A stretch of DNA of 43,314 nucleotides from a virus, in IMG/VR virus record IMGVR_UViG_3300038428_000573, positions 1 through 43,314 of that record; one strand, given 5' to 3'. Positions 3,072 through 34,981 of the stretch are shown here, in pieces. Made by a program: the position numbers and the translations under genes. Every line of letters starts with the position of its first letter. The stretch's first letter is position 1. Under the pieces are notes generated by a model. The model was not told the origin of the DNA and did no database searches. It worked only from the letters and a program-made list of their open reading frames with translations.

Positions 3072-3440
3072 TTAAACCAGTACCTCGACGTGAAATGTCC
3101 CGGCGGCCATGAAAATCTGCATGTTGCCGATGGGAACCTGCGATCCGGGGAAATCGCTCCCCCATGTTTTTATCGGGAAAGTGCTGGTCAGCTCCCAGCC
3201 GTAATTGCTCGTGCTGAGAGCGGTGGAAGTACCGCCCTGCGACTGGCAGCCGCCGTACAGCACGGTGTTGTCGATCTGCACGCTCATTGCCCGGCATACG
3301 CCGGGACAATTGGCGTCCAGCTGCGCCTGAATCAGCGCCAGCAGCTGCTGCGGCGTGTTCGCCTGCGCCGCGCTGATGGTGATCGTACCTGCGATATAAG
3401 CAGGTGGCTGCAGCGGGTATCCGGTAGCTGGTGCGCCCAT
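3072..3440 (-). CDS. Small structural protein (122 aa)
   Basis: Function is unknown. The protein is compact and predicted mostly beta, with three Cys (residues about 44, 48 and 64) and a conserved-looking core (MSVQIDNTVLYGG, then GNMQIFMAAGTFHVEVLV at the end). It has no signal peptide. It follows the giant hydrolase/fibre gene after an 87-base gap, the largest gap in this part of the late block. That gap shows no convincing promoter or terminator. The product may be a small fibre accessory or tail protein; this rests on position only. Confidence 0.6.
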   Translation of the reverse strand: MGAPATGYPLQPPAYIAGTITISAAQANTPQQLLALIQAQLDANCPGVCRAMSVQIDNTVLYGGCQSQGGTSTALSTSNYGWELTSTFPIKTWGSDFPGSQVPIGNMQIFMAAGTFHVEVLV

Positions 3441-3527
3441 GGGTGAAGTTTACATCAGGGAGCATGTGTAAGGCAATGAACGGTAGTGCGCCGATTCTGC
3501 CTGCCCCAATGGACGTATGTGCGATGC

Positions 3528-6500
3528 TTAGTGAAACACCGTGTTACCGCTCAACTTTACCGCGCCGCTTACGGTCACACTCGGACCAGCGGCAGAAACC
3601 AGCGTTGTGAAGCTCAGAATGCTCCCGCAGCCCTGCCCCGCCGAGTTGGTCGCACAAGCCTGATAATAATAGCCCGTGTTCGGACTCAACGCCGTACATC
3701 CGCCGCTTCCCAGCGTAACCGTAAACGGTGAACTCGTTCCCCCGGCGGCGCACAGCGTGCCGGGAGGCGAAGACAACCCGTAGTAGACTCCCTCGCTCGT
3801 CACCGATGCCCCGCCATTGCTCGTTACGGTACCCCCGGTAGTTCCGCCTGACGAGGTGACACCTGAGACCGTCGTGGTCGTCACCGTGGGCACTACGACG
3901 CCGCCAACCTGCGAGACGGCTACCGCCCCGCCGGTGCTCTCAAAGTAGATCGTGTTGTCACCGGAATTGACCGTGAACGGAGATCCCGTTACCGCGCTGC
4001 CGCCCACCGTGACGTTGTACGAGGCCGGCGCGAACCCCGCGAGAAGATACTGCGCCGTACCGCTGTGCGTGCTCGTGAAGCTCGCGCCGGTCAATAAAAC
4101 GCCCTGGCGCGCAAACATCGCCACCCGCGGATAGCCGCTGTCTGCAATCTGCTGTGCCGCACAGTTTCCTCCGGTCCCTGAACATGTCAGCGCGGTGAGC
4201 GTCGGCATGGTTCCGGTGCCGTTGACCGGCTGGTGAACCACGATCTCCTCGAAGCTGGTTGCGGAAGTATTGCAGGTCCCGCTCGAACCCTGGCAGGAGT
4301 AGAGACGGTTGGTGAGGCCGGTGGGGATGTTGTGCCCGGTGTACGTGTTGCCCTGATTGATCAGCGTTCCTGCCGCGCCCGGATAGATGAAAGTCGAATT
4401 CAGTTGGGAACTTGCCTGCGTGTCGCTGACTGTATTTCCCGAAAAGTTGATTACCGAGGCCGGCGTCCCGCATGTTCCGAGGGAACTGGAACCCTGACCG
4501 GGAACCCAGGCGCACAGCCCGTACTGCCACAGCGCTGCAATGGTCGTTGCCGCTCCCGTCGCTACGTCGTCATAAACCACAAAGTAATCCTGATAGGAAG
4601 GCTTCTTGAAGTGCATGATGTGCCGCTGCACCCGGACCGGAGCGCTCGTGATGTTATTTGGATTGTAGACATTCTTCATGTCCGTCATCACGTACATGTA
4701 CCGGTTCGAACTGTCTCCGGTCGGATCGGTCGAAGCCCAGCGCAGGATCGGTGCGTTGCAACCGCCGTATGTGCCGCCGTAAGAGCGAGACCCGCCGCCC
4801 CCGCTTCCGTTGCTGCAATACACATCATAAGATGGGGTGGGCCAGTTTTCATATGTGGTTCCCTGGGCCCAGTTCGCTCCCGCGCCCAGTTCGATCATGT
4901 TCATCTGTTCGGGGCTGTTCGTATGATCCGTTTGCGCTCCGGTGTCGTCGGCCAGCAGAAACGCACTGTTACGGTAGATACGAAAATCCCCCCAGTTGCC
5001 CATGCCGTCAGATGTATCGCCGGAACTGTGGTCTGACCCGTTGGTCCATCCCGCCTCCAGCATCGCCACGTCGTCCGTTGATGACCATCCCGAACGGGTC
5101 AGGACTTGTGACCATGTCTGGTTCGGGTAGCAGGTTAGTCCGAGACTGACGCAGGTTGAGTATTCTGTGTCATTGAAAAGGTATTGCGTAGAAAAACCGG
5201 TAATGTTCGTCTGCGTAGCCGCCGGGTCCATAAAGATATAAGCGTAGACGGTCGGTTCGGACCAGCTTGTGCTCGATCCCATACTCGAAGCAACATAGTC
5301 GCCGCGCCTTGTCATCAGATAGTAGTTGAGATATGGAGTGCTGGGGTCTGTGCTTTGAATCCCGGCAATCGTATACAGTGTCTCAATTCCGCCCGATCCG
5401 GTTCCCCACTTGTTTGCGTCGGCCTGTTGGAACGGGATCACATCGTAAGTGCTGCCCTGCACCGAATCCGGTAACATCCCCATGAACTCGAAAGGAATTT
5501 CCCGCGTCAAATACTGGCCACCGAGGTTCGGTCCGCTGATAACGGACTTCTGGATCATCTCATACACCTGATGCTTGAACCGATGCGTGCGTGCGTTGGA
5601 GTAGGCGTTACCGGACGAACTAAACCCAGTGTCCGCCGAGAGATAAAATCCGTACTGATTCGCGTAGTACCAGTTGTATGCCTGCTCAAACAGCGTGACG
5701 GCACGGGGGTCGTCGTCGGCCAAAGCGTCACCAATGGCTAACTCGCCAATAATACCGGTCAGGTTCAGGTTCAAATCAGGAGCAAGATCCCCGCCGCCGC
5801 TGTTATAATTTCCCACATAGTTTGGCGCAATCGGCGGGCTGGCCGAGTGATGCTTCATGAACCAGACGATGCCGCAGTTTCCGGTCGTCCATGGCGGCGA
5901 ATAGATAAGCGGAAACGAGAGTCCTGACGGGATGTTGACGGAATTGCTGACCGTAAATGTCGTCGAGTTGGTGATCCCGGTTACGACAGTGGCAGGGGAC
6001 CACTGACTTTGAAAGCCTGGACCCACGGTGCTGGTAGTGTTGAAGATTACGTATCCGACTCCGATCTGAGATGTCGTCCCGCCGGTAATGGTCACCGTCT
6101 GGCTGGAGCCGCTTGTCGAAAGAGTTCCCGTTCCCTGGGTGACTGACTGGGGTGTACAGGCTGTCGTGTCTATTCCACCCTGCGAAGCCGTCCAGTCGTT
6201 CAGCATATAGTTGGCAAATGTTTGCCGTTGCCCGGTCGTCAGTTGACTGCGAATGATGGAATACGCCTGGGCATAGGCTATGATGTACTGCCGAACATAG
6301 TCAGTATCGTTGGTGCGCTCGCCGGCGGAGACCGGGCCGCAGTAGTTGCTGCCGGTCGGACATGCCGCGCTGTTCCCCACGATGCGGATGGCATTTTCGA
6401 TGCCGTACTCGGCGCAGGCCAGGTAGCCATTCGGATCGATGGGCGACTGGCTCGGGCCGCCCTGTGCCCACCACATAAGGGCGCACATGAGAGTGTTGTT

Positions 6501-8885
6501 GCCGGGATAGGCGTTGTAGCTGCTGCTGCCAGTGTCCGACCACAGAGCGTAGTCGGTCATGGGGTTCTGATAGCCCTGCGAAACGTAGTTGTTAGTCTGG
6601 GTCTGCAGGGCCGCGTAAGCGATGTTGCTGACGTTCGCCCTGGTGGCGGTGTTCTGCAGGGCTGTCGAAAGAGCACCGCTCGGACCATCGAGCATCACGC
6701 GCGGATGCTGCTGAAGGTTGTAATTCACTCCGTTCAGCGTGACTGTTGCGGTGGGGGCGTCCAACTGGAGCCACAAGTCCACATTGAATGTCCCGGTGTA
6801 AGTGAAGCTCTGGGAACCAGCCGTAGCGGAAGTTGTAAACGTGGCGAGCGTGGCCCCGGTCGAAGGCAACACCCAGGCCCCCGTCATGGACGCCTGGGGG
6901 ACCGTGAGGGTTACCGTAGGATTAGTCACCGCGTTGGGCACGCCGGTTGTGGCGTTTCCGGTCGAACTGAGAATACCAAAGCGCATGTGGTTAGTCGAAC
7001 CAAGACCGGTAGTATTACAGGCAGCCCCCGCACAGCCGCCGCCCAGAGTAACCGAGATCGGAACGGCAGCCGGATCCAGACCGACCATGAAGTTCCCGAT
7101 GTTGTACTTGCCCAGGGTGAAGTCCAGCCATGTCTCGGCGATGAACGGAGTGCTTGAATTGACCGGGAAGAAATCGCTCAGAAAATTGAAAGCCGTAGCC
7201 GTGGATTTTCCGCACAGCGAAAAGAATTCATCAACGATCCGCGCGCCGTTTACTTCATCGTTCGGAACAGCGGGACTCTGGGTTGCGGGATAGGTTCCGA
7301 GCACGCCGCTTCCTCCGGGGAGAGGAGCTGCACTTGGTCCCGAAGGACCCTCGCTTTGATTGCTCGGCAGTAAAGGACTCTGGTTTCCGCAGTAATAGGT
7401 CCCCGGCGACCCGAACCCACTGCTGGCGTACGAGTAGATCGCCGTCCCGTTCATCGAGTCCACGTTGTCCATGGAAATCTGATTCATGTAGGCGTCGGGC
7501 GTCGATGTGCCGGGACCGTACTGGAGCGAGCCTGTCTGATACGGAGGCCAGTCGGACACCGTGATGAAGTGACCGTATGGATCCGCGGGATTTCCTCCGG
7601 CAATGCCGCTTACTCCGGTGGCCAGGGCAGCACCGATATGATCAACCCAGGTCTGCGTCGGATGCATCTCGGCAGCTATTTCATAGAAGTCCGAAAATGC
7701 TCCCCACCTGGCAGAAACGTAAGCAATGTAATGCTGGAGGTTCGATTGCTCGGCGGATGTGCAGACGTAGCTTGGACAGATACTACTGGCACCGCTGAAC
7801 CCTGTTATTGGACCCATATTCAAATGGATTCCTGCCGCGTGCATTGCAGCCAGCACTGAATCGATATGCGGAGCGCCCCAGTTAGTGTTCCCGCTCATAT
7901 TGAAGTTGTAAGTGTTGTAGCCTGTTCCGAGGAACGTCCCGCCAATGCCTTCCGGCTGATTATTGAGGTCCGACAAGCGAGTGAGGTTAACACCCCACTG
8001 CTTCATGAATTGTGCTGCCTGCGTAAAGGTGGACTGATAATCTATGGCGCGGCCTCCTCCTGAACCGAAATCACGAACAAAGCCAAGGTATGCAGGAACC
8101 GGAGTGGAATAGGTGCCGCCGCTTGATGGGAGGGTCAGGGAAGTAGCGTTGTTGACTACTACGCCGGGACCGCCATAGTAGACGCAGCTTGACGGACCGG
8201 TCGGGCAAATGTAAATCTGGTTGTAGACCCCCGCCGAAAGAGTTTGGGTGGAGAACTGTGCACCGCTCGACCACGTAACGGCAGTTCCGCTCACGGTCAC
8301 CATCGCGCTGGCAGGAGTGCCTGCGTAATTAGGCGAAACGGAATATGAAGGGCTGCTGTTCCAAGGCGCAACCCATTGACCCCCCAGACCCCAGAATGCC
8401 TGATTATTGCCATCGGTGACGAGATTGGTCGTTCCGGGGTATTGGCGCAGGAAGCCATTCGCAGCATTCCATGTTGAGGCGACCGTATACGATCCGGTTG
8501 CTGTGCAGGTGTTGCTTAGTTCGTCCGAGAAATTCAGTTGCCATGTCCACACCCCGGCCATCCACGAACCTGGCGCCACGTATCCCGCCGCAATACGTGC
8601 GGCGAATGTATTCGTGCCGCCGTTTGAATGCTGGTTCAGCAGGAACAATCCTGTCGTTACAGTGTGCCCGCCGCTCGGCGAAGTGACAACAAGAGTACCG
8701 TTGGCAACCGCGTCATCGTCTACGTAGGCGTATCCGGTGTTGGTCCCCTGTATCTGATACACGTCGCCCTGGTTTGGTGACCCGCTTACCGAGCCGTCGG
8801 ACTGGATGGTTCCGGTGGTCGTGATGTTGCAGGTCGTCGCGCCGAGAGCGACCGCGAAGAGAAGGAAAACGATGACAGGTTTCAT
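3528..8885 (-). CDS. Secreted glycoside hydrolase plus heparinase II/III-like fusion, tail-fibre region
   Basis: This is a 1785-residue multidomain protein. Residues 1-16 look like a Sec signal peptide (a Lys near the start, then a hydrophobic run ending ALG-A). Residues 20-135 look like an Ig-type sandwich. About 140-700 resembles a TIM-barrel glycoside hydrolase: YEIAAEMHPTQTWVDHI around E406 and DPYGHFITVS fit the acid/base region, and PFIAETW (E584) fits the nucleophile region. From HPRVML (727) to about 1620 it follows the heparinase II/III plan: an alpha/alpha toroid, then a sandwich with TRSGWSSTDD (1263-1272), DH near 1285 and DHTNS near 1320. An FN3-like module lies near 1668-1763. 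Many Cys pairs fit an oxidising location. Family calls are by pattern recall; the polysaccharide substrate is unknown. The start follows TAAC of the upstream gene. Confidence 0.75.
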   Translation of the reverse strand: MKPVIVFLLFAVALGATTCNITTTGTIQSDGSVSGSPNQGDVYQIQGTNTGYAYVDDDAVANGTLVVTSPSGGHTVTTGLFLLNQHSNGGTNTFAARIAAGYVAPGSWMAGVWTWQLNFSDELSNTCTATGSYTVASTWNAANGFLRQYPGTTNLVTDGNNQAFWGLGGQWVAPWNSSPSYSVSPNYAGTPASAMVTVSGTAVTWSSGAQFSTQTLSAGVYNQIYICPTGPSSCVYYGGPGVVVNNATSLTLPSSGGTYSTPVPAYLGFVRDFGSGGGRAIDYQSTFTQAAQFMKQWGVNLTRLSDLNNQPEGIGGTFLGTGYNTYNFNMSGNTNWGAPHIDSVLAAMHAAGIHLNMGPITGFSGASSICPSYVCTSAEQSNLQHYIAYVSARWGAFSDFYEIAAEMHPTQTWVDHIGAALATGVSGIAGGNPADPYGHFITVSDWPPYQTGSLQYGPGTSTPDAYMNQISMDNVDSMNGTAIYSYASSGFGSPGTYYCGNQSPLLPSNQSEGPSGPSAAPLPGGSGVLGTYPATQSPAVPNDEVNGARIVDEFFSLCGKSTATAFNFLSDFFPVNSSTPFIAETWLDFTLGKYNIGNFMVGLDPAAVPISVTLGGGCAGAACNTTGLGSTNHMRFGILSSTGNATTGVPNAVTNPTVTLTVPQASMTGAWVLPSTGATLATFTTSATAGSQSFTYTGTFNVDLWLQLDAPTATVTLNGVNYNLQQHPRVMLDGPSGALSTALQNTATRANVSNIAYAALQTQTNNYVSQGYQNPMTDYALWSDTGSSSYNAYPGNNTLMCALMWWAQGGPSQSPIDPNGYLACAEYGIENAIRIVGNSAACPTGSNYCGPVSAGERTNDTDYVRQYIIAYAQAYSIIRSQLTTGQRQTFANYMLNDWTASQGGIDTTACTPQSVTQGTGTLSTSGSSQTVTITGGTTSQIGVGYVIFNTTSTVGPGFQSQWSPATVVTGITNSTTFTVSNSVNIPSGLSFPLIYSPPWTTGNCGIVWFMKHHSASPPIAPNYVGNYNSGGGDLAPDLNLNLTGIIGELAIGDALADDDPRAVTLFEQAYNWYYANQYGFYLSADTGFSSSGNAYSNARTHRFKHQVYEMIQKSVISGPNLGGQYLTREIPFEFMGMLPDSVQGSTYDVIPFQQADANKWGTGSGGIETLYTIAGIQSTDPSTPYLNYYLMTRRGDYVASSMGSSTSWSEPTVYAYIFMDPAATQTNITGFSTQYLFNDTEYSTCVSLGLTCYPNQTWSQVLTRSGWSSTDDVAMLEAGWTNGSDHSSGDTSDGMGNWGDFRIYRNSAFLLADDTGAQTDHTNSPEQMNMIELGAGANWAQGTTYENWPTPSYDVYCSNGSGGGGSRSYGGTYGGCNAPILRWASTDPTGDSSNRYMYVMTDMKNVYNPNNITSAPVRVQRHIMHFKKPSYQDYFVVYDDVATGAATTIAALWQYGLCAWVPGQGSSSLGTCGTPASVINFSGNTVSDTQASSQLNSTFIYPGAAGTLINQGNTYTGHNIPTGLTNRLYSCQGSSGTCNTSATSFEEIVVHQPVNGTGTMPTLTALTCSGTGGNCAAQQIADSGYPRVAMFARQGVLLTGASFTSTHSGTAQYLLAGFAPASYNVTVGGSAVTGSPFTVNSGDNTIYFESTGGAVAVSQVGGVVVPTVTTTTVSGVTSSGGTTGGTVTSNGGASVTSEGVYYGLSSPPGTLCAAGGTSSPFTVTLGSGGCTALSPNTGYYYQACATNSAGQGCGSILSFTTLVSAAGPSVTVSGAVKLSGNTVFH

Positions 8886-8886
8886 G

Positions 8887-9600
8887 TTATTGGTAGGCTA
8901 TTACTGCCGCGCAATTCTGAGCAGTCGTGCTCGGCCACGTAACATTCCCCGTGCCCACTAACGTGTTGTAGACAAACCAACTATAACGGCTCGCCGGGTT
9001 AGAACCTGCCACGCCAGCGTATCCGCCTGTCACGCTTGTGTACGAACCAGTCGTGGCGACGCCACACACCTGAAGGATTGCGGAATTTGTGGATATCGAG
9101 GGATTTACCAGCGCCCACGGACTTGAATTTGTTGTATTGGCTGAAACAAAAGACAACGTGGGTGTGGTCCCCATCCACGTCAGGTCCATATAGGAAATGC
9201 CTCGGGCAGCTCCGGTTGGCACCGATGCGGTCACGATGTCATTCGTTCCGCCGAGAGAGTTTGCTACCCCAGCGACGCATACTGCATAACCGGTAGCCCC
9301 ATCGTATGTCCCGCCATTATTAGTCCAGATGTCTCCGTTCGTGCTGGTCACATCAGTTGTGCCAGCCGTAGGACAGCCGTTCCCGAGTATCCAGAATCCG
9401 ACGAGACGTGTTACGTGTATCGGCACGGTTGGCTGTGATCCCGTGGCGCAGGTTCCCCCCGATGTTCCGCCGCAGTTTGAAGTGTAGTTTGTCAGGGGGT
9501 TCTGCGGAGTGAAACTGTTGGATGAAGCCGGAGTGAACGAGAAAGGCACATACTGCCCAGCAAACAGCCAGCAGAGAATGGCGATCAGTGAATGAGGCAT
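8887..9600 (-). CDS. Exported tail-region protein (237 aa)
   Basis: The N terminus (MPHSLIAILCWLFAGQ) is a short hydrophobic segment ending Ala-Gly-Gln, compatible with a Sec signal peptide. The rest is Thr/Ser/Asn/Gly-rich and probably all beta, with several Cys, including a CGGTSGGTC cluster near residue 43. It resembles a lectin-like or receptor-binding domain in composition, but no family is recognised. The gene is packed between two other signal-peptide-bearing fibre genes, with TAACATG junctions on both sides, so the three are surely co-translated. A role in surface binding is inference from context. Confidence 0.65.
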   Translation of the reverse strand: MPHSLIAILCWLFAGQYVPFSFTPASSNSFTPQNPLTNYTSNCGGTSGGTCATGSQPTVPIHVTRLVGFWILGNGCPTAGTTDVTSTNGDIWTNNGGTYDGATGYAVCVAGVANSLGGTNDIVTASVPTGAARGISYMDLTWMGTTPTLSFVSANTTNSSPWALVNPSISTNSAILQVCGVATTGSYTSVTGGYAGVAGSNPASRYSWFVYNTLVGTGNVTWPSTTAQNCAAVIAYQ

Positions 9601-9601
9601 G

Positions 9602-11815
9602 TTAATTAGCCTGTACAGCTAGCAGTCTCGGGAAGGTCACATCGGCATAGTAGAACCCGGTCACCCCCGTTGCTGTATCCGTGGCCCTGCCTATCGAGAC
9701 GATCATGAACCCACCTGCCACGCATCCGCTCATGCGCGTCGAATCAAGCTGAATTGAGGTCGTGTAGAACCCGTGCGCAACGGCGCTCCCGCCGAGAGTG
9801 ACCGTGGTAAGCGCGAGATATCCGGTCAGTGCGTGGTCATCAGAAACCGTGCCGTTCACTGCGCCTGGACAGGAGATCGCCACTTCAGGAATGACGGTGT
9901 GCCCGCTGGTAGTGTCACTGGCAACCTCGAATCCAACACCGACATATGGCAATGTGCTCGTGTCCCAATCTGCCGGGATACTCACCATGAACTGCGCGAA
10001 CGTTCCCGCCGTGTCTGAGATTGATACGAACCCGCCGAGATTATTGGTGCCCGCGCGACAGGTCACCGTGCCGCCCGATCCGATAGACCACCCTGCTCCA
10101 GCCGTTGCGTTGTTGCAGTTCGCCGCCGGGATCATGTAGCGTTCAGGGAAGTCGATGAATGTCGGTGCTCCCGTGCCGCCCGATAGTGCAAGTTGCTTCG
10201 CTGTTCCCGCCGCGCCAACCTGAGGGGCAGCCGCACTGCCGCCGCCCGCAACCAAACCACCCTGCGTGCCGTTGATGATGCTGGCAAGCGGAACTCCTGT
10301 GAAATTGGCCCCGCCAAGTGCGGGGGTATTAGTGAGCGTAGGTGCCTGCGCGGCTGAACCGGTTCCATGGCTCACAAGGACCTCATCGGTAGCCGCCGTA
10401 TTGCCGGAAACAAACAGTGTAGTTGCTGCTGCGCTTTGATAGGGAAGCGAACCCACCGCACCGCCGGCCACATTAGTTGCGGTCGTGGCCGAGGCGACCG
10501 TCGTGACAAACTGCAGCAGGTGGCAGACTGTCGGAGACCCCGCCGGAAGCGTCGGGCAGGTTGTCGCGCCGGTGTCGATAAGAGCCTGATTGGCCAGCCC
10601 GTTCGTACTCGGAAGAACGTAGAGGATTGACGCTCCCGCCGCGTCCGCAGCTCCGATACCGACTGCGCCGCTCGATATCCCGTTGAAAACCGCGCTGCCG
10701 CTGTCGGTCGGCGAAGCACCGCCGGTGTGCAGGCTGTTGACAGTCTGGTTCCCGCTGGAGTCCACGGTGCAATTCGCGCTTGGTGTCTGGATTGTGGTTG
10801 TCCCGCCGCCCGTGACGCATTCCGTGTTTGTGAGCGACCCGGAGCCTACTACGGTGACGGTGCCCCCGCCGCTTTGCGCGATGCGATGTTGAACGCCGCT
10901 GGTATCGATGTAGTTAACAACTTCCGTATCGCTCGGGTTGGCGATTCCCTGTATTGGATTCGAGTTTGCGTCCGGGAGCGTGAAGGTTCGCGCGGCTGTA
11001 GGGGTCCCAAGAAACTGATAGGCATTCGAGCCGAACGAGCCCCCGCCGTATAGGTAGAGATAGCGGAATGGAGTGGAGGAACCGCCAAGGTCAACCGCAG
11101 AAGCAGCAGCAGCCTGGAATGCCGAGGTATTAGACTGACACGCGGTGCCCGCGTTACTTAGGTCACCGCAGGCCGGTTGAGATTGATGCGGAACGCCGGA
11201 AGTATCGATATACGAAATCCAGTTATGGGTGGCTTCCGTAATTGATTCGATACCGCCGATAGTACTGGCTGTAGGCAATGGAAGGTCCGCGCCAACGAGC
11301 GCCCTGAATCCAGGAGCACCGGCAGAGCCGTTCGGGGCGGCAAACACCTGATTAGCGTTCTGAGACGTGAGCGTGATCGCGTCCACATAGGGCGCTCCTG
11401 ACGTTCCCGAGCCGGTCTGCGTGGTCGTGAACATCGCCGGGTAAGTGGTTTGCAGGTACAGCCCCGTCCCGGTAAGCGCCGCCTGCGTTCCGAACTGGTA
11501 GGAGGCGAAAATGCTCCCCGAACCGGATATCCCCGTCCACACGCCGTACCCGCTGAGCACGTGCTGGCACGAAGTCATTGCGCCGGTGTTCAGGTTTACA
11601 TAGAAAGGCGAGGGAATGATGCAGGTGGCCCCGATTGACGGCTGCCCCTCCTGTACGGGATTGGCTGCCGACACTACCGGGATTGCATTCTGAGCACAGA
11701 GAGATGCGCTAACAATCGCTGCTGACAACCACAATCGCAGACAATGCAGTTTGTCAGGGCGCGTGAAATTTCCGGGAAGAAGGTAAAGCTGCATGATCGT
11801 AATTCGAGCTCTCAT
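9602..11815 (-). CDS. Tail fibre / receptor-binding-type protein with signal-like N terminus
   Basis: This is a 737-residue Gly/Ser/Thr/Ala-rich fibre-like protein. A hydrophobic segment near residues 28-42 (LWLSAAIVSASLCAQ) looks like a signal peptide with an Ala-Gln junction. The preceding 20 or so residues may be a mis-chosen start, since an in-frame ATG at 11794 would shorten it. Short degenerate repeats occur in the shaft (ISYIDTSGVPHQSQ and NYIDTSGVQHRIAQ). The last 150 or so residues form a distinct, less repetitive C-terminal domain containing ERYMIPAANCNN and SMSGC-like Cys positions, as expected for a receptor-binding tip. It starts directly after the TAG stop of the spike gene. Function is inferred from composition and neighbourhood. 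Confidence 0.65.
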   Translation of the reverse strand: MRARITIMQLYLLPGNFTRPDKLHCLRLWLSAAIVSASLCAQNAIPVVSAANPVQEGQPSIGATCIIPSPFYVNLNTGAMTSCQHVLSGYGVWTGISGSGSIFASYQFGTQAALTGTGLYLQTTYPAMFTTTQTGSGTSGAPYVDAITLTSQNANQVFAAPNGSAGAPGFRALVGADLPLPTASTIGGIESITEATHNWISYIDTSGVPHQSQPACGDLSNAGTACQSNTSAFQAAAASAVDLGGSSTPFRYLYLYGGGSFGSNAYQFLGTPTAARTFTLPDANSNPIQGIANPSDTEVVNYIDTSGVQHRIAQSGGGTVTVVGSGSLTNTECVTGGGTTTIQTPSANCTVDSSGNQTVNSLHTGGASPTDSGSAVFNGISSGAVGIGAADAAGASILYVLPSTNGLANQALIDTGATTCPTLPAGSPTVCHLLQFVTTVASATTATNVAGGAVGSLPYQSAAATTLFVSGNTAATDEVLVSHGTGSAAQAPTLTNTPALGGANFTGVPLASIINGTQGGLVAGGGSAAAPQVGAAGTAKQLALSGGTGAPTFIDFPERYMIPAANCNNATAGAGWSIGSGGTVTCRAGTNNLGGFVSISDTAGTFAQFMVSIPADWDTSTLPYVGVGFEVASDTTSGHTVIPEVAISCPGAVNGTVSDDHALTGYLALTTVTLGGSAVAHGFYTTSIQLDSTRMSGCVAGGFMIVSIGRATDTATGVTGFYYADVTFPRLLAVQAN

Positions 11816-14068
11816 CTAATTCGGGTATCCAAAGCAATGGAAATCAATCTTATCTCCGCTTGCTCCACCGGTCCCGATTGTGAACGTAACCGCCGTCGTG
11901 CTCACCGCAACCTGAACGGGAGCCGGATTGTTCTCATCGCTTGCCGTACATGCCGGAGCATTCGACGTATAGGGCGTATTGAAAGTATAGGTGCAGGTGG
12001 TCCCGCTGATGCCGCACTTCCCTGATGCGTCGGCGTTTGCCCCATCCTCCTGAATATGAGAACCAACCGCTCCAAATTGAAGGTTTGTTCCGATAGTCGT
12101 CAGACCAGTCGATTGCAGGGAAGAGGCAACCATATTCGGAGCCGAACACCACACCTGCGTGAGGGTTCTGGGATTGCTTCCGGCGGTTGCCGTATACCAG
12201 CAAAGCGAACCCAGACCCATGGAAAGAATACCGCCGCCCTGCGTTGGATCAATGAGGTTCGCCTGGGTGCTTGAAATGCGCTTAAGATTATTTCCGATTT
12301 CCCAAATATTCCCGGTCCAGTGGTAGCCGATCTCGGTCGGAGTGGTGTAACCCAGATTTTGCATTTTCAGCCGCTGAAGACTTCCGTTGAACAGGATCGT
12401 TTCTTCGTCAACTCCCGCATGATCGCTGGCATCCCATGATTTACCAAAACCGTCCGTATCGCTGCACGCTGCCGCATAGGTCCCCAGTGAGTTATTTCCA
12501 AAGGAACTGCCAAATCCTGCGTACAACTCACCGTTTGAGCCGTTGCAGTTGATCCCGTATCCGGTTGCAGAGCCCTCGTTGTCCACGCCATGGAACGAAA
12601 TCTGGTCGCTGCCTGACAACTGCACATTGTCACTGTTGCTGTAGGACAGGCCTCCTCCGAAGAAGCTGGTCCAGCGAACCTGCACGCTGGTGGTAGCCTG
12701 CGTTTTCAGCGCCACGTTGTTCCAAGTCGAGTATGTGTTGAAGAAATTGGTTTGGGTGACTCCCCATGCGGCGTTTTCATTGTGCAGAAAAATCCCCGTT
12801 CCGAAGCCCATAGGAACGCCTCCGGGATTATCTCCGGCTCGCAGGTTCGTGAAATTGTTCAGATAAGCTCCGACGCCGTTTCCTGACGGGTCCTGATCCT
12901 CCAGCACTACGGCATTGCCTGTGCCCAGTCCTCCTGAAGCCCCGGAGTGTGTGATGTACAGATCGTTATAATGTCCGTACCAGGATTGTGCTTCAAGACC
13001 ATTGCAGCTTCCCGCGCTTCCCGTTACGTCAATGTGCAGATTGGAGACCTCGGGATGCCAGACTGCGTTATTCGGTATACTGCTTGAAATGAACACGACT
13101 CGCCCGGTTGTGCACGAAGAACTTATTTCAGCGCTTCCCCCAGGTGCTCCGACCAGTGCGGAATAGTTTCCGCCCAACTGAACCACCGGATTTATCGTGC
13201 TGGATAGTTGGGCGCTCTGAACATTCAGCGTGATGCCAGCAGGAATAACAACGGTTGAGCCAATGGTACATGTCTGCGAACTTCCCGTAAACGATATCAC
13301 TCCACCTCTGCCACTGCCTGATTGAATGTAAGTGATCGCGGCATTGATTGCCGGAGCCACATCACCACCTGTAGCGGGACATGATATCGTTACCGAATTT
13401 CCTCCGCTGCTTCCTCCTCCGCCAGCGATTATGTCTCCCAGAGTGAAGGGTACGGGAACCCCGGTTCCTGAAATCTGAACATCTACATGCGCCCCGCACA
13501 GCGCGTAGAAGAATGAGTAGCCGTTGCCACTGGCTGTGCTTCCGGCAGTCAGAGTGAACGGGTTCGTTTGTGGGTTTCCAAGACTGTCCGAATAGATCGT
13601 TGCCAGCGTGCCGGTCATCACACTCTTCAAAACAATGGTTCCCGAAGCAGTTGCGGTCCCGTTGCTCAAAACACCGCTGACCGATGGGTTGAGGAACCCG
13701 CTGCCCGATGCATTGATGGCGATCGGCGTACCCGGAGCTACCGTGTTGGTTCCCGTCAGTGTCAGGGTTCCGATGGCTCCGCTGCCCGCGGATAACGGAA
13801 CACCCAGGAACGCGACCGTGGCTGTGGAACCCTGGGCACCGGTGAATGACCCTCCGCTCACGTATGTCGCTGAAGCGATGCTCTGTGATCCGCTGGTGAA
13901 AACCGTAATCGTGGCGTTGGGGTAGGACGCCTGGACCGGCGTTGTCGGAGAGGACTGATACCCGAGAACCGCAATGGTCTGGTTACCCTGCTCAGCCCAG
14001 TTCCACACCCGGCAGTAGGACTGAGCATAAGCGGCCGCTGCTATAAGAAAACCAATTAACAATCTCAT
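11816..14068 (-). CDS. Tailspike-like beta-helix protein with signal peptide
   Basis: With the ATG at 14068 the product has 750 residues and opens MRLLIGFLIAAAAYAQ, a textbook short Sec signal peptide. Residues about 25-225 hold Ig-like, Thr/Ser/Gly-rich modules. From about 235 to 560 the sequence has the look of a pectate-lyase-type right-handed beta-helix (GDVAPAINAAITYIQSG, then many short N/G-rich strands). A C-terminal domain with paired Cys (GKCGISGTTC) ends it. Phage tailspikes with this fold cut host polysaccharide. The stop TGA of the previous gene overlaps this ATG as TGATG, and GAGGG lies four bases upstream. An ATG one codon earlier (14071) is the alternative start. The gene ends in TAG. 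Confidence 0.7.
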   Translation of the reverse strand: MRLLIGFLIAAAAYAQSYCRVWNWAEQGNQTIAVLGYQSSPTTPVQASYPNATITVFTSGSQSIASATYVSGGSFTGAQGSTATVAFLGVPLSAGSGAIGTLTLTGTNTVAPGTPIAINASGSGFLNPSVSGVLSNGTATASGTIVLKSVMTGTLATIYSDSLGNPQTNPFTLTAGSTASGNGYSFFYALCGAHVDVQISGTGVPVPFTLGDIIAGGGGSSGGNSVTISCPATGGDVAPAINAAITYIQSGSGRGGVISFTGSSQTCTIGSTVVIPAGITLNVQSAQLSSTINPVVQLGGNYSALVGAPGGSAEISSSCTTGRVVFISSSIPNNAVWHPEVSNLHIDVTGSAGSCNGLEAQSWYGHYNDLYITHSGASGGLGTGNAVVLEDQDPSGNGVGAYLNNFTNLRAGDNPGGVPMGFGTGIFLHNENAAWGVTQTNFFNTYSTWNNVALKTQATTSVQVRWTSFFGGGLSYSNSDNVQLSGSDQISFHGVDNEGSATGYGINCNGSNGELYAGFGSSFGNNSLGTYAAACSDTDGFGKSWDASDHAGVDEETILFNGSLQRLKMQNLGYTTPTEIGYHWTGNIWEIGNNLKRISSTQANLIDPTQGGGILSMGLGSLCWYTATAGSNPRTLTQVWCSAPNMVASSLQSTGLTTIGTNLQFGAVGSHIQEDGANADASGKCGISGTTCTYTFNTPYTSNAPACTASDENNPAPVQVAVSTTAVTFTIGTGGASGDKIDFHCFGYPN

Positions 14069-15387
14069 CATGCCCTCATAAACCAACTCGTTCCATAATA
14101 CTGTGCAAGACCGCCGTTCGCCACGCCCGGCGGGTTGATCTTCGCGTTTGCATTGCTTAGCGCGTGATGGTGCGCGCTCCCGGGGCCTGTCGTTCCGTTC
14201 ACGCTGGTTACCACCGTCGTGGCCCCGGCGACGGTGGTGATATTTGCGGTTGTATCTCCCACACTGTGCGCATGCGAGCTTTCATCGTCCGTAACCGCCG
14301 CGGCGTCCCATTTCGGTGCTGTCGCTGGAGATAGCGCCGCCGTTCCGCCAGTCATCAGCAGGGCTGGCTCGGGTGGGGTTCCAACCGGATTGTTCAGGTT
14401 TTGAGTAGGTATACTCGCGGTGCCAATGGGTGACGTTACGCACGTATAAGTTCCCCCATCGCACGGATACCAGACGCCGCCTTGGGGGGCGGATCCTCCC
14501 GTCATGACCCGTTGCTGGGAACTCTCGCCGTTCAGAATGAACGTTGAGCCGTTCCATATCCAGTTGTGTTCGTAGGTGGAATCAAAGGCCGGCGGCCCTG
14601 CTCCTACGCCGGAAAGTGCTGCCGCAAATGAAACGACTGCCGAAAATGTGCCTATGTAGATGCCGGAGTCGTAAGACCACACGGTCCCAAGCCAACGGAG
14701 GGTAAGTGACTGCCCGGTTATTCTGAACAGGAAACCAGTATCGAGCGTACCCAAATCCGTTGGAATGTTGCCGATTACATCACGGTAGAGTCCGGTAACG
14801 AAAACCCACTTATTTACGCCGCTGATCTGCTGGACAACATAGAGACTTTGACGGTCAGTCAGGGTTGAGTTTGTCTCCCAGAAAAACGTCGTTCCAAAGT
14901 GCGGTCCGGCCGGGTAGTTGGCGGCGGCATACTGAGGCAGAGATACGCGGTTGGCATGGGTGTCTTCAATCACCGTGACTGCGGACACCGGCGTCCACGC
15001 CGGAGGTGCTGAAGGATTCCCTATCGGACGTGCATACACGTACAGCACGCCATTCACCACCACAGCGGTGTTGACCTGATTGTAAACCCCGGCGATGGGA
15101 AGCGCCGTCAGCGTAGGCAGACCCGCGATCTGCGGCTGCGCCGCCTGCCCCAGAAGCCCGGTGATACTGAAAGGGACCTCGCCGCCAGGTTGAAACTCCG
15201 CACGCACGGCCGTGGCGATCTCCAGCAGGTCTTCTTTGCCAAACTTTGTTGCTGCTGTCGCCTGGGCTGCTTCTGCCCTGCTCTGCGCATCAAAAGCGAA
15301 ATCGGCAACTTTGCGGAGATCACGCTGTATCGGAAGAGGAATATTCGGGTTAATTCCTACCGGAGGAGGACCGGCTCTGCGTGCCAT
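14068..15387 (-). CDS. Tail fibre protein with collar-type domain (439 aa)
   Basis: The start is placed at the ATG at 15387, which overlaps the stop of the 1517-aa gene as TGATG; the frame extends further upstream, but only inside that gene. The N terminus (MARRAGPPPVGINPNIPLP) is followed by a helical segment (RDLRKVADFAFDAQSRAEAAQ) typical of fibre attachment regions. Near residues 330-439 there is a tail-collar-like module: GGVWYPCDGG, a His-containing loop SSHAHSV and SAHHHALSN, ending in a Pro/Gly-rich tip. His pairs of this kind bind metal in some phage fibres. It has no signal peptide, unlike the four fibre genes after it. It is probably the fibre that joins the tail to the spikes; that is inference. 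Confidence 0.7.
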   Translation of the reverse strand: MARRAGPPPVGINPNIPLPIQRDLRKVADFAFDAQSRAEAAQATAATKFGKEDLLEIATAVRAEFQPGGEVPFSITGLLGQAAQPQIAGLPTLTALPIAGVYNQVNTAVVVNGVLYVYARPIGNPSAPPAWTPVSAVTVIEDTHANRVSLPQYAAANYPAGPHFGTTFFWETNSTLTDRQSLYVVQQISGVNKWVFVTGLYRDVIGNIPTDLGTLDTGFLFRITGQSLTLRWLGTVWSYDSGIYIGTFSAVVSFAAALSGVGAGPPAFDSTYEHNWIWNGSTFILNGESSQQRVMTGGSAPQGGVWYPCDGGTYTCVTSPIGTASIPTQNLNNPVGTPPEPALLMTGGTAALSPATAPKWDAAAVTDDESSHAHSVGDTTANITTVAGATTVVTSVNGTTGPGSAHHHALSNANAKINPPGVANGGLAQYYGTSWFMRA

Positions 15388-18300
15388 CAGATTTTCGCTC
15401 CCGATACTCCGGCACCACCGGATACGTCGCCGAATGGCTTTACCCTCTGATAGGGACCGGTCGAAGCCCACGGCTTCACCAGAAACTCGATATCCTTTTC
15501 GTAGAACTGCAATCCTGTGCCCGATCCGGTGAGCTGCCAGTACAGCCCTTTCAGCGGCGGCAGAGGGAAGTATTTCTTCACCGGTGATGCCGCGGTAGGA
15601 AGAGTGGCTAAAACCGTCAGATTTCCGTCGACTATCACGCTGACCACACCCCCGGCAGTGGCGCCGGCGAACGCCAGCCACATCTCTCGTGTATGCAGAT
15701 AGCCCTGCTGTCCCATCGCCGTAGGTTGGGTGATCCAGTAATTCGCCGGCTCTGGTTCGATCTCATAGACCCATTCTGTATTGGGCCAGTAACGCCAGGG
15801 GACGTTATCCAGCGGCTTGATATACATCAGATGAGCTTTGAACGGAGGCGTCCACGAATACGGAAGCGTCTCTTCACCGTTATGGTTGATCGTCAGGACG
15901 GGTCCTGCAATCCCGCCTTCGTAGAGGATCTGAATCTGCTTGTTCTGGCCGAACGTATCCGCATGTAAACGGAAGCCCTGCACGAACTTGTAATGTGGGG
16001 TTCCTCCATCCACCCAGTTCACGGCCAGTGCCCCACCGTACTCCGGCTCCATGTTGAACATCCAGGCGGTATCCGGCCAATAGCGCCAAACCACTGCGTC
16101 CTGAGGGACAATTCTCATCTCGTGGGCGTAAACGGGAGTGAAGTAGTACGGTAAAGCCTCCTCGCCGTTGTGCTGAATGGTGATGTTTACCGTCGGGCCG
16201 GCATTGCCATCAAACTGAACCTGAATGACCTTGGCGTTGTTGTAGGTGTCGGCATGCAGAAGAATCCCGTTGATCCACTTATACCCTTCCTGACCTCCGT
16301 TCACCCAGTTGACCGCCAGAGCTCCCCCGTATTCCGGCTCGGGGTTGAAAATCCACGCCTCATCATGCCAGTCCCGGCAAACCACATCGTCCTGCGGGAC
16401 GAGCCGGACTTCATGGGCGTAGATCGGAGCGAAGTAATACGGCAGTCTTTGCTCACCGTTATGCTGAACGGTGATTGCCGCAGTAGATACCTGATTGTCG
16501 TACTCGATTGTGAAGCTCTTGGCGATGTTGCCGGTGTCCATATGGATCACCACACCATTGATCCACTTATAACCGGGCTGTCCTCCGATTTGCCAGTCCC
16601 CCACGCGTGCGGTGGTGTTTTCGGGCAACGGAAGGTACGACGGTTGCCATTCGTAAAGCCAGATCGGACCCGTTCCGGAGATCAGCGTAGTGATGTTGCG
16701 ATGAATAATCAGGGTATCACTGGTTTGCGGGGGAGTTATCAGATCGAGAACCTTCTGTGTTCTCGACGAGGACAAAGCAACCGCCGGAGTCGGTCCCGAA
16801 ACCAGAAGGTCGTCCCAGAAAACCGCCAGCGTCGGAGCATTGGCATTGGCAGCGGTGCTGTAGTCCAGCAGCAGATCCCCCCATTGCTTGTTGGCGCGGC
16901 TGTCGCCGGCGTCTTGCGCAGGCGGTAGAACCGCCCAGGCGATAGCTCCTCCGGCGTCTGCGGTCGCTGTGGATGAAACCTGATACAGATTACCGTCGCT
17001 TCCGCCCGCCAGAAGCAGCGGATTAGGAACTCCTCTCTCCAGCAGAAAATTGGTCACATTCGGGCTGTAAGCGTCTTTTCTCCACCCTTTGGAGTCCAGC
17101 GAAAAAACCAGCGTTTCGTTGTAGTTGGAAAGCAAGGCATTGTTCAGATAAGAGCAATACACAAACGACTCGCTGTAGGCCACCCGAAGCGAAGTAGTCT
17201 CGGCATAATCGGGCGGATAAATTGTCTGGCCACCGATGCTTACCGGAACTCCGGGAATACCCTGCTGCCCGGACTGGCCGGAATGGGGGAATAACGGATA
17301 CAAATCCGGTGCAGTAATGTTCACCGCCTGCGCACCGAAATTGTACATGTAGATCCCGTCGGGACCCCACCAGAACAACATGAAGCGCTGCGCATCGAAG
17401 GCCCACGGGCCGGCGAGCCCGTCGATCCCTGCAAGTCGATAACTGGTGTATGGGTTAGCCTGTCCCGGAGTGGACTCGACCCGGTACAGCGAAGAAGACG
17501 TAAACACGTAGTTGCTGCCTTCGGCGTAGAATCCGTTTAGCAACGGCTCTGACGGCGTGGTGACCTCGATATAACCACTGTCGGAGGCCCCGTCGGGGTT
17601 GTCGTTGTTGCTGAAATACATCAGGCCGGGATTCAGAGGGTCCCCCACGGCACAGATGCGGTTGTTGGCCTCATCAAGCCATCCCGCATACAACGACTGA
17701 CCTTCGATTGTCGCTTCCGGGACCGAGAAGGAAATCGTTCCCGGAGTCCCCGGAACGGACTGCGCCAGCGTCAGCGTCGTGTCGCTTGTTGGCGGCTGGA
17801 ACAGACTGTATGTATTACCGCCAATGATGATTTCGGTGCCTCTCAGCCAGCGCGGATTGAACTCATCTCCCGATTCATAAACCACCGAAGTTCCGACCAC
17901 CAGAGCCATCCCGGAATGCGGGACATCGGTTACCGGCCATGGCTGATAAGATGTAACCTCCAGCGGATCGCCGATTTGTGCTGCTGCTTCGGTTACGGTG
18001 TCGGTGAATGTGTAGCCTAGGGCCACAGGCTGCGAGCCAACGTAATGCCAGTCCGGGTTTGAACCTCCTCTGCGCTCCCAGTCCACATAATCAACCTGTG
18101 CATCACTGCTGGCCGCAGCGGTCAAATTAATTCCCTGCCGGCGAAGTATTTCACCATTGCGCGTTTCGGGACTGACCGTCGAGTGAGCTCCGGTGGATGA
18201 GTTTCGATAACGATAGCGCCACTGAATCTCGGGATCCTGATTGCCGTAGATATTGAAATTACAGTCAGGCCCGTAACCTCCCCCAACCCAGCACCCCCCC

Positions 18301-19940
18301 ACGCTGGCGTTAACCGTTCCCCCGCTCACATAGATCAGTATTCCGACGACATTGACGTAGCTCAGTCCGAGAGACGGATCAGTCCCTACCCGGGTAAGGT
18401 CGTTGATCTTTATCAGGACGTCGGTCCAGTTGCTTTGGCCAATATTGAACTCTGCGGGGTCCGGTGAAGCTGTGGACGGATTCTCCGGGATCGGATAAGC
18501 AGGCTGGGGAGCGATCGGCACAACTTCCTCGCTGGTTAGTTGTGAAGCAATCCCGTACTCAACGGCGGAAAGTTGTGCGCTGACGGTCGGAAGGGTGCCC
18601 GGTGTAGCCCCCCCCAGAGCAGATTGCGCAAAATCGGACTGACGAAGAACGTAGTAATAGTAATTGTGCTGAAAATCCGCATCGGCGGCGTCAACGTTCA
18701 GCATCAGATGAACCTCGGTCACCCACTGCGGATTGTCAAACCAGAGACTCACATGCAGATAGTCTTCGTTCTGGATCGGCCTGCCGCCGACATTGGTGAG
18801 ATCCAGCGAAGAAGTAACCGGACCGGTCGCCCCTGCCATGACCGCAGACATCGAACCATTTGCGACGGTGGGAGTCAGCGTAGCGGTAACGCAGTCTCCG
18901 GTAAGACCGACCCCGCCGACATGGTTGCTGGTGGTCCAGGCACGGAAGTTTGGCGGTGAGGTTATCGCAGCCCCGGCAGATATGGTAGTTCCCCCGGTAT
19001 TGCAACGGAAACTGTACGATCCGTCAGGAGCCGCGGTGACACTGAGCACTCTTACCGGAGTCGGTCCTATTCCCAGCAGCAGCAGTTGATTACGCGCGAC
19101 GCCCGGAAGCGGCGTTGCCGGAACAATTGTGCATAACCCGGATGAACCACTGTCGTACTGAATCGCGGCTACCGTAGTGCCGGTTGAAACTATCGCCGGA
19201 AAAACCTGTTCGATTACTACGTTTTCCCCGCCGACAATCACCATGGATGAAGCAGTCATCCAGCCATAATTTGAAGCTGAAGCCGCAATGCAGGCCATTC
19301 CGGTAGTCCCGGAGTCGTACAGGATCACCGGAGCCGTGGCGCCCGCCGGAATACGCGCGACCGCGCTCAGGACCGAGCCAATGGTTCCGCCGGTTCCGTA
19401 GAGACCGGACCAGGCATTTTCCCCGGCTTCCGTGTTGCTGAAAATCTTGTAGAGCGGCTCGATCCTAGCCGAAGATGGCTCCGAAATCGGGGCGGCTATG
19501 CCGATATTCTGTTTGCTGGAGTTGTCGGTCTTGTAGCGCTGCTGCTTTGCCGAATCGAATACATACAGCCATGGTTCGGGGGACTGTGGGGGGCGATACG
19601 GAACCATTGCCAGAGGATTCCCGCTGAAACCGGTGTCGAGAGAAGAAAGAGAGCCTCCGGCGCCCGAGTAGAGCACTGTCCCGGCCCCCACGAAGCGGCT
19701 GAATGGGTTGGATGAAGCCTCAGGGGTGCTGTCGTTCATCCGGCAGATGGAGTGAATCGGAACGTCCGCAGCGGTCGTGGCAAGCGATGCAATTGCCGGG
19801 CGGGTGGTCAGTGCTCCGGTCTGCGTGTCGGGCTGAAGATTGAACAAAAGCGAGCATCTTCCGTCAGGAAGCAGATCGGGCGGATGGTGGATGTCCATCC
19901 CGGTATAGGCGAACTTTCCGGGAATTCTCCTGAAGTCCAT
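15387..19940 (-). CDS. Large tail nozzle / hub-like protein with tandem C-terminal repeats
   Basis: The product has 1517 residues. The N terminus (DFRRIPGKFAYTG, then LLFNLQPDTQTGALTTRPAI and a SICRMND segment) resembles the beta-propeller-type nozzle or DNA-stabilisation proteins of short-tailed phages, which close the tail tube. The central part is beta-rich with many Trp and Pro. Residues about 1116-1406 are three tandem repeats of 96-98 residues, and a divergent tail follows. The start ATG overlaps the stop of the connector-like gene (TGATG), and its own stop overlaps the next gene in the same way, so the tail genes are tightly coupled. The nozzle assignment rests on order and N-terminal look, not on a clear family motif. 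Confidence 0.65.
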   Translation of the reverse strand: MDFRRIPGKFAYTGMDIHHPPDLLPDGRCSLLFNLQPDTQTGALTTRPAIASLATTAADVPIHSICRMNDSTPEASSNPFSRFVGAGTVLYSGAGGSLSSLDTGFSGNPLAMVPYRPPQSPEPWLYVFDSAKQQRYKTDNSSKQNIGIAAPISEPSSARIEPLYKIFSNTEAGENAWSGLYGTGGTIGSVLSAVARIPAGATAPVILYDSGTTGMACIAASASNYGWMTASSMVIVGGENVVIEQVFPAIVSTGTTVAAIQYDSGSSGLCTIVPATPLPGVARNQLLLLGIGPTPVRVLSVTAAPDGSYSFRCNTGGTTISAGAAITSPPNFRAWTTSNHVGGVGLTGDCVTATLTPTVANGSMSAVMAGATGPVTSSLDLTNVGGRPIQNEDYLHVSLWFDNPQWVTEVHLMLNVDAADADFQHNYYYYVLRQSDFAQSALGGATPGTLPTVSAQLSAVEYGIASQLTSEEVVPIAPQPAYPIPENPSTASPDPAEFNIGQSNWTDVLIKINDLTRVGTDPSLGLSYVNVVGILIYVSGGTVNASVGGCWVGGGYGPDCNFNIYGNQDPEIQWRYRYRNSSTGAHSTVSPETRNGEILRRQGINLTAAASSDAQVDYVDWERRGGSNPDWHYVGSQPVALGYTFTDTVTEAAAQIGDPLEVTSYQPWPVTDVPHSGMALVVGTSVVYESGDEFNPRWLRGTEIIIGGNTYSLFQPPTSDTTLTLAQSVPGTPGTISFSVPEATIEGQSLYAGWLDEANNRICAVGDPLNPGLMYFSNNDNPDGASDSGYIEVTTPSEPLLNGFYAEGSNYVFTSSSLYRVESTPGQANPYTSYRLAGIDGLAGPWAFDAQRFMLFWWGPDGIYMYNFGAQAVNITAPDLYPLFPHSGQSGQQGIPGVPVSIGGQTIYPPDYAETTSLRVAYSESFVYCSYLNNALLSNYNETLVFSLDSKGWRKDAYSPNVTNFLLERGVPNPLLLAGGSDGNLYQVSSTATADAGGAIAWAVLPPAQDAGDSRANKQWGDLLLDYSTAANANAPTLAVFWDDLLVSGPTPAVALSSSRTQKVLDLITPPQTSDTLIIHRNITTLISGTGPIWLYEWQPSYLPLPENTTARVGDWQIGGQPGYKWINGVVIHMDTGNIAKSFTIEYDNQVSTAAITVQHNGEQRLPYYFAPIYAHEVRLVPQDDVVCRDWHDEAWIFNPEPEYGGALAVNWVNGGQEGYKWINGILLHADTYNNAKVIQVQFDGNAGPTVNITIQHNGEEALPYYFTPVYAHEMRIVPQDAVVWRYWPDTAWMFNMEPEYGGALAVNWVDGGTPHYKFVQGFRLHADTFGQNKQIQILYEGGIAGPVLTINHNGEETLPYSWTPPFKAHLMYIKPLDNVPWRYWPNTEWVYEIEPEPANYWITQPTAMGQQGYLHTREMWLAFAGATAGGVVSVIVDGNLTVLATLPTAASPVKKYFPLPPLKGLYWQLTGSGTGLQFYEKDIEFLVKPWASTGPYQRVKPFGDVSGGAGVSGAKI
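15723..16595 (-). repeat. Three tandem about 97-residue protein repeats in the nozzle-like gene
   Basis: Residues 1116-1211, 1212-1308 and 1309-1406 each begin with W-x-x-GG-x-x-x-YK and contain an H-x-DT motif. Each then has HNGE-x-x-LPY, a variant of Y-AHE-x-R-x-VPQD, an R-x-W-x-x-x-x-W box and an EPEYGGALAVNW-type end. Copies 1 and 2 are the closest pair; copy 3 has drifted (HYKFVQG, EPEPANYW). The repeats look like carbohydrate- or surface-binding beta modules, which is inference. Confidence 0.8.
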
Positions 19941-34752: not shown

Positions 34753-34777
34753 AACAACAGCATACCGTTGTTCCGCT

Positions 34778-34981
34778 TTACATCGTCGATTTGGAAGCAA
34801 GAAAATACAACACACGCACCGCTTCGCCGTCCTCTTTATCCGCGTCACGCCGGTTTAACTTCTCCTGACCGCGCAGCCGCCAGTTCGTCATATACATTCG
34901 ATGTCTGCATTTAAGGCAGGAACCGCACCAGCAGGTTTGTTTTCGTCCGGGAGGACATCCGGTTTTTACATAAGCGCACAT
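34778..34981 (-). CDS. Small Cys-rich, probably zinc-binding protein (67 aa)
   Basis: The N-terminal half carries six Cys (MCAYVKTGCPPG, then TCWCGSCLKCRHR), arranged as C-x-C-x-x-C-x-x-C, typical of a small zinc-binding knuckle. The C-terminal half is charged and helical. The ATG at 34981 is chosen because a longer frame upstream overlaps the preceding gene. The ribosome binding site is weak (GGGG about 14 bases upstream). It lies between the terminase subunits, so a packaging accessory is plausible. No family is named with confidence. Confidence 0.55.
   Translation of the reverse strand: MCAYVKTGCPPGRKQTCWCGSCLKCRHRMYMTNWRLRGQEKLNRRDADKEDGEAVRVLYFLASKSTM

Follow-up and report, generated by a model that had tools for sequence, protein, structure and literature searches.

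In a 43,314-nucleotide stretch of viral DNA (IMG/VR record IMGVR_UViG_3300038428_000573, positions 1 to 43,314; hereafter the window), four consecutive genes of the tail-fibre region, named here by their lowest coordinates as 3528, 8887, 9602 and 11816, begin with segments resembling Sec signal peptides, and 11816 carries behind its signal a homologue of the virion-docking N-terminus of phage tailspikes. Judged from sequence, the four proteins are very probably exported; that exported proteins would then dock onto virions is slightly favoured, and the combined reading, export followed by virion docking of at least the module-bearing proteins, stands in our estimate at an even chance. Tail assembly is taught as a wholly cytoplasmic process. 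Phages of a recurring set, two of them isolated on Tunturiibacter, nevertheless place Sec signals on spike- and fibre-type proteins that take up roughly a fifth of the genome. Should these proteins end up on virions, a periplasmic step must be added to the assembly model; should they stay off virions, the phages turn receptor-binding proteins of their own into weapons or decoys for secretion. Both outcomes would be new and bear on virion exit from polysaccharide-rich soil cells, and such genes are labelled merely "tail spike" or "virion structural protein" by automatic annotation.

Predicted signal peptides at four coupled gene starts

The four open reading frames (ORFs) lie side by side on the minus strand (3528-8885, 8887-9600, 9602-11815 and 11816-14068), and their annotated starts are supported by coupled stop/start junctions (TAACATG, TAACATG, TAGATG and ATGATGA, the last overlapping the upstream stop). 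N-termini were scanned with a von Heijne-type score combined with tests of the hydrophobic region (h-region) and of charge; the scorer and its weight matrix were home-made, and the only check was a calibration against E. coli proteins known to be secreted or cytoplasmic. Among the 21 window ORFs of at least 200 residues, exactly the four passed and none other, in agreement with the original prediction that each of them starts with a signal peptide. The same rule accepted 3 of 113 control ORFs (from T7, Serratia phage MTx and Tunturi_3-5), which were scattered and never side by side.

The anatomy expected of a Sec signal cut by signal peptidase I, namely a charged n-region, a hydrophobic h-region and a small-X-small site, appears clear in 11816 and 3528, plausible in 9602 and weak in 8887. 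The product of 11816 (750 residues) is a tailspike-type protein with a signal peptide, a split docking module and a presumably beta-helix-like body; it begins MRLLIGFLIAAAAYA^QSYC, its best start is the ATG at 14068/14071 and not the TTG at 14086, and its predicted signal (14024-14068, minus strand) ends at AYA^Q. The fibre-type product of 9602 (737 residues), whose C-terminal domain is common to signal-bearing proteins of other phages, begins MRARITIMQLYLLPGNFTRPDKLHCLRLWLSAAIVSASLCA^QNAI; its probable signal of 41 residues (11693-11815, minus strand) has a long n-region and would be cut at LCA^Q (...LRLWLSAAIVSASLCA^QNAI). The Ala-Gln junctions that had been noticed in two of the genes are therefore real, and belong to 11816 and 9602. 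The small product of 8887 (237 residues, 2.9% Cys) has the weakest signal of the four, MPHSLIAILCWLFAGQYV, with an n-region devoid of Lys and Arg and an unclear cleavage site, and the large Cys-rich product of 3528 (1785 residues) begins MKPVIVFLLFAVALGATTC, with predicted cleavage at MKPVIVFLLFAVALG^ATTC. A lipoprotein reading, with processing by signal peptidase II, was rejected: no canonical lipobox (L-[AS]-[GA]-C) occurs in the four N-termini, 3528 having only ATT-C.

Cysteine makes up 1.65-2.9% of the four proteins, whereas the median for the remaining structural genes lies below 1% (P=0.006). Mature cysteines number 14 in 11816, 14 in 9602, 6 in 8887 and 30 in 3528, and a similar enrichment is found in Tunturi_1 (P=0.002). 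The description of all four as Cys-rich is thus fair and statistically significant, but the enrichment is only moderate.

A tailspike docking module behind the signal of gene 11816

The N-terminal docking module of 11816 (13445-14014, minus strand) consists of two conserved halves with an insert between them and was delineated by BLAST, alignment, hhalign and, through the module of the related phage G006, Foldseek. A segment of about 110 residues right behind the signal, with the signature WCExGNQ...SYPxCTVTV...LATxYSDNxGTxLANPFTA...FFYA..G.YD, is common to the first signal-bearing protein of each phage (BLAST, at least 10 related phages), and the bodies that follow it are unrelated, which is the usual tailspike layout.

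When viral contigs were scanned with the module alignment, two groups were returned, one with the full segment (long form) and one with its second half alone (short form). The long, Cys-containing form is preceded by a signal peptide in 15 of 15 distinct phage loci, against 2 of 24 short-form loci, in both of which the rule wrongly accepted beta-strands (Fisher P=5e-9, a value that overstates the difference, as do our other P values, since the loci are related and not independent). Genes in the relatives were called greedily, and a looser signal-peptide rule had flagged beta-strands inside short-form modules, so that a tightened rule was used for the locus counts. Short-form proteins begin at the second half, typically with MQKYxDxV...GALATIYSDNGVTP, and have no signal; a second scan of viral contigs gave 397 matches to this form, and in all 29 distinct sequences among the best 80 of them the start codon lies exactly at the module, whereas no long-form protein starts there. 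Where the short form occurs in cultured phages, it makes up the N-terminus of proteins annotated as tailspikes and exopolysaccharide (EPS) depolymerases. The two forms are homologous (hhalign probability 99.5%, E 1.7e-22), and 11816 is linked to the family by BLAST.

An AlphaFold2 model of the long-form module of G006 (predicted local distance difference test, pLDDT, 83) had phage tail, neck or tail-tip complexes as its five nearest structures in the PDB, the top matches being the Pan3 tail complex, the XM1 neck, the Pam1 tail machine and the Ur-lambda tail tip (E 0.008-0.06, probability about 1). Among predicted viral structures, the model comes closest to proteins of tailspike and pectate-lyase type. 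On the simplest reading, an ordinary virion-docking tailspike N-terminus gained an export signal together with an extra half-module bearing a cysteine pair. In keeping with this, G018 holds tandem paralogues (L059, reverse strand, oriented positions 8945-10540 and 10540-12618), the first of which (G018a) has a signal peptide and both module cysteines; the second (G018b), whose start overlaps the upstream stop, has no signal and neither cysteine (FAQQGN..., FPGATVTV). As for the body of 11816, the protein has no Pfam or PHROG match of its own, and a sequence search of the PDB gave spurious nanobody matches only; the relative G006, which has the same N-module, matches tail spike families in PHROG and the Beta_helix family in Pfam, and from its sequence 11816 would likewise have a beta-helix body.

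Recurrence of signal-bearing tail genes

The trait recurs in about 20 phages, several unrelated phages from soil among them. In the isolates Tunturi_1 and Tunturi_2, six consecutive genes (ORF12-17), annotated as tail spike, pectin lyase, tail fiber and virion structural, all pass the signal-peptide scan, ORF15 most weakly. Examples of their signals are MKKFIQLALLFILPAAASAQ, MKWLSRLGLILLWPVAGFAQ, MRYLYALLIMMSCPLANAQ and MKKLILILPLLATSLAGAQ, and the last signal of the Tunturi_2 block reads MKKLILILPLIAASFAGAQ, showing that substitutions preserve the hydrophobic core. In each of the related phages G002, G004-G007, G009, G018 and G019, the tail region encodes between one and three large signal-bearing proteins, further such proteins occur elsewhere in the structural operon of G009, G010, G017 and G019, and in L087-L090 a signal-bearing spike gene lies within the tail operon, flanked by tail genes. 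The two proteins of G009 (1003 and 914 residues; L019:1408-4419 and 5193-7937) lie upstream of the major head protein, an insertion site unlike the tail region. A separate fibre of 1603 residues (L070:6027-10838) combines a signal peptide with collagen-like repeats (Pfam PF01391) and similarity to PHROG tail fiber proteins.

Sampled tail genes of Tunturi_3-5 have no signal peptides, except for one membrane-type protein of 118 residues, and we therefore rejected a host-wide explanation by which every acidobacterial phage needs signal-bearing fibres. Outside this comparison, Tunturi_4 ORF57 (L076:45645-46250), annotated as "regulator of chromosome condensation", has a clear signal peptide at its start (MKFAALAILICPALALA).

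A second line of recurrence concerns 9602. Its last 200 residues share 55-71% identity with the ends of signal-bearing proteins in five further contigs (G023 (L142, 120 kb), G024/L143, L144, L145 and L146), and in this C-terminal domain (9605-10207, minus strand) four cysteines are invariant across six homologues, all six with a signal peptide. PHROG and Pfam scans found no domain in 9602 and the PDB no sequence match; an AlphaFold2 model of the C-terminal domain gave matches resembling carbohydrate-binding modules and ephrin receptors, only a hint at a pLDDT of 65, and we tentatively regard the domain as a possible carbohydrate-binding-like jelly roll. Two unrelated phages, G023 (L142:5025-12496) and L145 (2766-13041), repeat the window order, with a signal-bearing fibre ending in the 9602-type C-terminus, a signal-bearing protein of about 240 residues and a large Cys-rich signal-bearing protein. 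The middle protein, of 237 or 249 residues, occupies the place equivalent to 8887, but BLAST did not establish homology to 8887, so that a conserved three-gene cassette rests on gene order and signal peptides only. In L146, a stand-alone, signal-less short module of 197 residues (3439-4032) directly precedes a signal-bearing fibre of 1521 residues (4032-8597), which looks like a split of adaptor and exported fibre into separate genes.

Neither 3528 nor 8887 yielded a domain in PHROG and Pfam scans of the window tail genes. For 3528, no homologue was found among phages, genomes, the PDB or Pfam, nor any relative beyond the same virus, and its nature as an enzyme or adhesin is suggested by inference only.

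Export, docking and the competing explanations

According to the reading that we prefer, the four genes would encode exported tailspike- or fibre-type proteins expressed late from the tail operon. The host Sec system would carry them over the inner membrane, signal peptidase I would cut them, and they would fold and form disulfides in the periplasm; 11816 and its relatives, which have the docking module, would attach to progeny virions once lysis opens the envelope, making the last step of tail assembly extracytoplasmic. Export and cleavage would follow from the N-terminal anatomy, periplasmic disulfides are likely, and docking onto virions is the least certain part. Several observations weigh against this reading. 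No precedent was found for docking that follows export, a mechanistically odd order of events, the signal of 8887 is weak, and the docking module is not recognisable in 3528, 8887 and 9602, a homologous docking N-terminus having been found in 11816 only. The PDB matches of the G006 module are individually weak by E-value. Signal-bearing genes number from 0 to 6 per phage and vary in operon position, and the tail stretch read in the close relative G008 has none, from which it follows that they are not strictly essential parts. The window 11816 keeps its signal and has lost the module cysteine pair, with another Cys nearby, which leaves the link between signal and cysteines suggestive, not strict. 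Finally, virions of phage Milano are reported to contain disulfides (PMC10811340), so that cysteines alone are no proof of periplasmic folding.

It is quite possible, though on balance we doubt it, that the proteins never join the virion and are secreted effectors, spike-derived depolymerases or adhesins that the infected cell exports through Sec and then possibly type II secretion, and that would either remove the extracellular polysaccharide of the host, so that virions can leave and spread, or cover receptors and thereby block superinfection and re-adsorption to debris. Such secreted enzymes or receptor-blocking adhesins are favoured by the variable number and position of the genes and their absence from some relatives, including the tail stretch of G008, and by the large bodies without docking module (3528, 8887 and 9602); consistent with them are also the combination of signal, cysteines and low Lys/Arg composition, the beta-helix spike type of the relative G006, the retention of both an exported and a signal-less copy in G018, and the production of extracellular polysaccharide by the host genus of the isolates (PMC11924767). 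Yet the most conserved part behind the signal is a virion-docking domain, for which a purely secreted enzyme should have no need, and the genes are placed strictly in tail operons; it is this module and this position that favour loading onto virions at lysis. The two readings may each hold for some of the proteins. The original suggestion of exported enzymes and adhesins, or else of fibres attached outside the cytoplasm, is thus strengthened in both its branches, the trait being present in related phages that include two isolates and in unrelated ones, and 11816 being of tailspike type.

The other explanations fare worse. It is improbable that the hydrophobic N-termini stay unexported and serve as a plug or trimerisation segment anchoring the spike in the tail, signal-like by convergence: although the segment sits directly before the docking domain, its three elements (a positively charged n-region, a hydrophobic core and a small-X-small site) reappear in differing sequences, homologous spikes dock without any such segment, and unrelated bodies lacking the module (Tunturi ORF13-17 and the 9602 family) have it too. 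Capture of ordinary secreted proteins from a host secretome, also raised originally, would account for the lack of phage homologues of 3528 and 8887 and for the carbohydrate-binding-like fold modelled, with low confidence, for the 9602 C-terminus. We consider it very unlikely, and for 11816 it is unsupported, since the module is a phage tailspike docking domain with 397 viral matches and, like the 9602 C-terminal domain, recurs in viral contigs; moreover, genome scans, which reach mainly close relatives, found no relative of the module in one genome for each of 84,980 bacterial and archaeal species under the patterns scanned, and none of 3528 in the GTDB-representative contigs covered. The signal peptides themselves could be of host origin. 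That wrong start codons or chance hydrophobic stretches produced the pattern is the least credible account of all: the weak signal of 8887 and the long n-region of 9602 speak for it, but the junctions are coupled, the trait recurs and the control rate is low, and for 11816 and 3528 it appears already refuted as far as sequence can do so.

Relation to known systems

The closest known proteins are the CarboxypepD_reg-like tailspikes and EPS depolymerases (PF13620, near the prophage tail fibre N-terminal family PF08400) of Pantoea phage Vid5, Serratia phage MTx and Escherichia phage ep3, which share the homologous N-module, a variable body and the tail-operon site. Unlike the long form, which has a signal and an extra Cys-bearing half-module ahead of the module, they start at the module, without a signal peptide and with 0.1 Cys per module. 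The closest solved folds are virion-bound docking domains of cyanopodophage Pan3 (9vyg), of Pam1 (7eeq) and of the XM1 neck (7kjk), matches with weak individual E-values, and nothing in these entries points to an export signal. Phage proteins known to use the host Sec system, such as Lom, spanins and signal-arrest-release (SAR) endolysins, are membrane or lysis proteins and, unlike the module proteins described here, are not tailspikes with a virion-docking domain. Lom has been described as a phage-encoded exported protein (PMC12309495). In open-access papers, we found no precedent for a tail fibre, tailspike or virion protein with a signal peptide, and the terms "signal peptide" and "tail spike" are absent from the main text of the Tunturi description (PMC11924767). 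The Tunturi_1/2 block, from viruses related by their large terminase subunit (TerL) and large virion protein, likewise consists of consecutive signal-bearing genes, but its bodies are unrelated except for the module, and it is located upstream, flanked by a tail gene and the endolysin.

We tentatively propose a branch of tailed-phage assembly outside the cytoplasm, although we hold this general form somewhat less likely than not to be correct. Spikes and fibres would leave the cytoplasm through Sec and undergo oxidation in the periplasm, and would be mounted on virions only at lysis, when the compartments merge. If true, extracytoplasmic loading would keep host-binding and depolymerising activities out of the cytoplasm and permit disulfide-stabilised adhesins.

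Genomic context of the window virus

The window is a fragment of a podovirus-like phage, and the IMG/VR contig G001 (63,318 bases) has identical genes (100%). On the minus strand, the order is terminase, portal, scaffold, major head protein, tail genes, a virion protein of 1517 residues, the gene at 14068-15387 and the four genes discussed above. By its homologous TerL and large virion protein, the virus is assigned to a Tunturi-like podovirus lineage, its nearest cultured relatives being Tunturi_1 (PP887698) and Tunturi_2 (PP885685). These were isolated on Tunturiibacter, of the Acidobacteriota (PMC11924767), and from this kinship we infer a host of Acidobacteriota type for the window virus, which comes from soil.

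The terminase large subunit (32440-34848, minus strand; PHROG 2) is 30% identical to that of Tunturi_1/2 over 61% of the query; the basic, Cys-rich beginning of this ORF resembles an over-extended start, and the true start is probably further in. The major head protein (23880-25007, minus strand) matches PHROG 9953 (E 1e-7) and has 30 related loci. Directly upstream of 11816, a signal-less fibre or adaptor gene (14068-15387, minus strand; start ATG at 15387) encodes an N-terminus (RPPVGINPN) similar to that of genes in the relatives and a C-terminus that, by inspection, reads like a tail collar or fibre tip. The large virion protein (15387-19940, minus strand) is a homologue of the Tunturi_1 ORF31 "virion structural protein" (31%, E 5e-77), and its overlapping, repeated C-terminal alignments to relatives point to a seemingly tandem domain whose copy number differs among phages.

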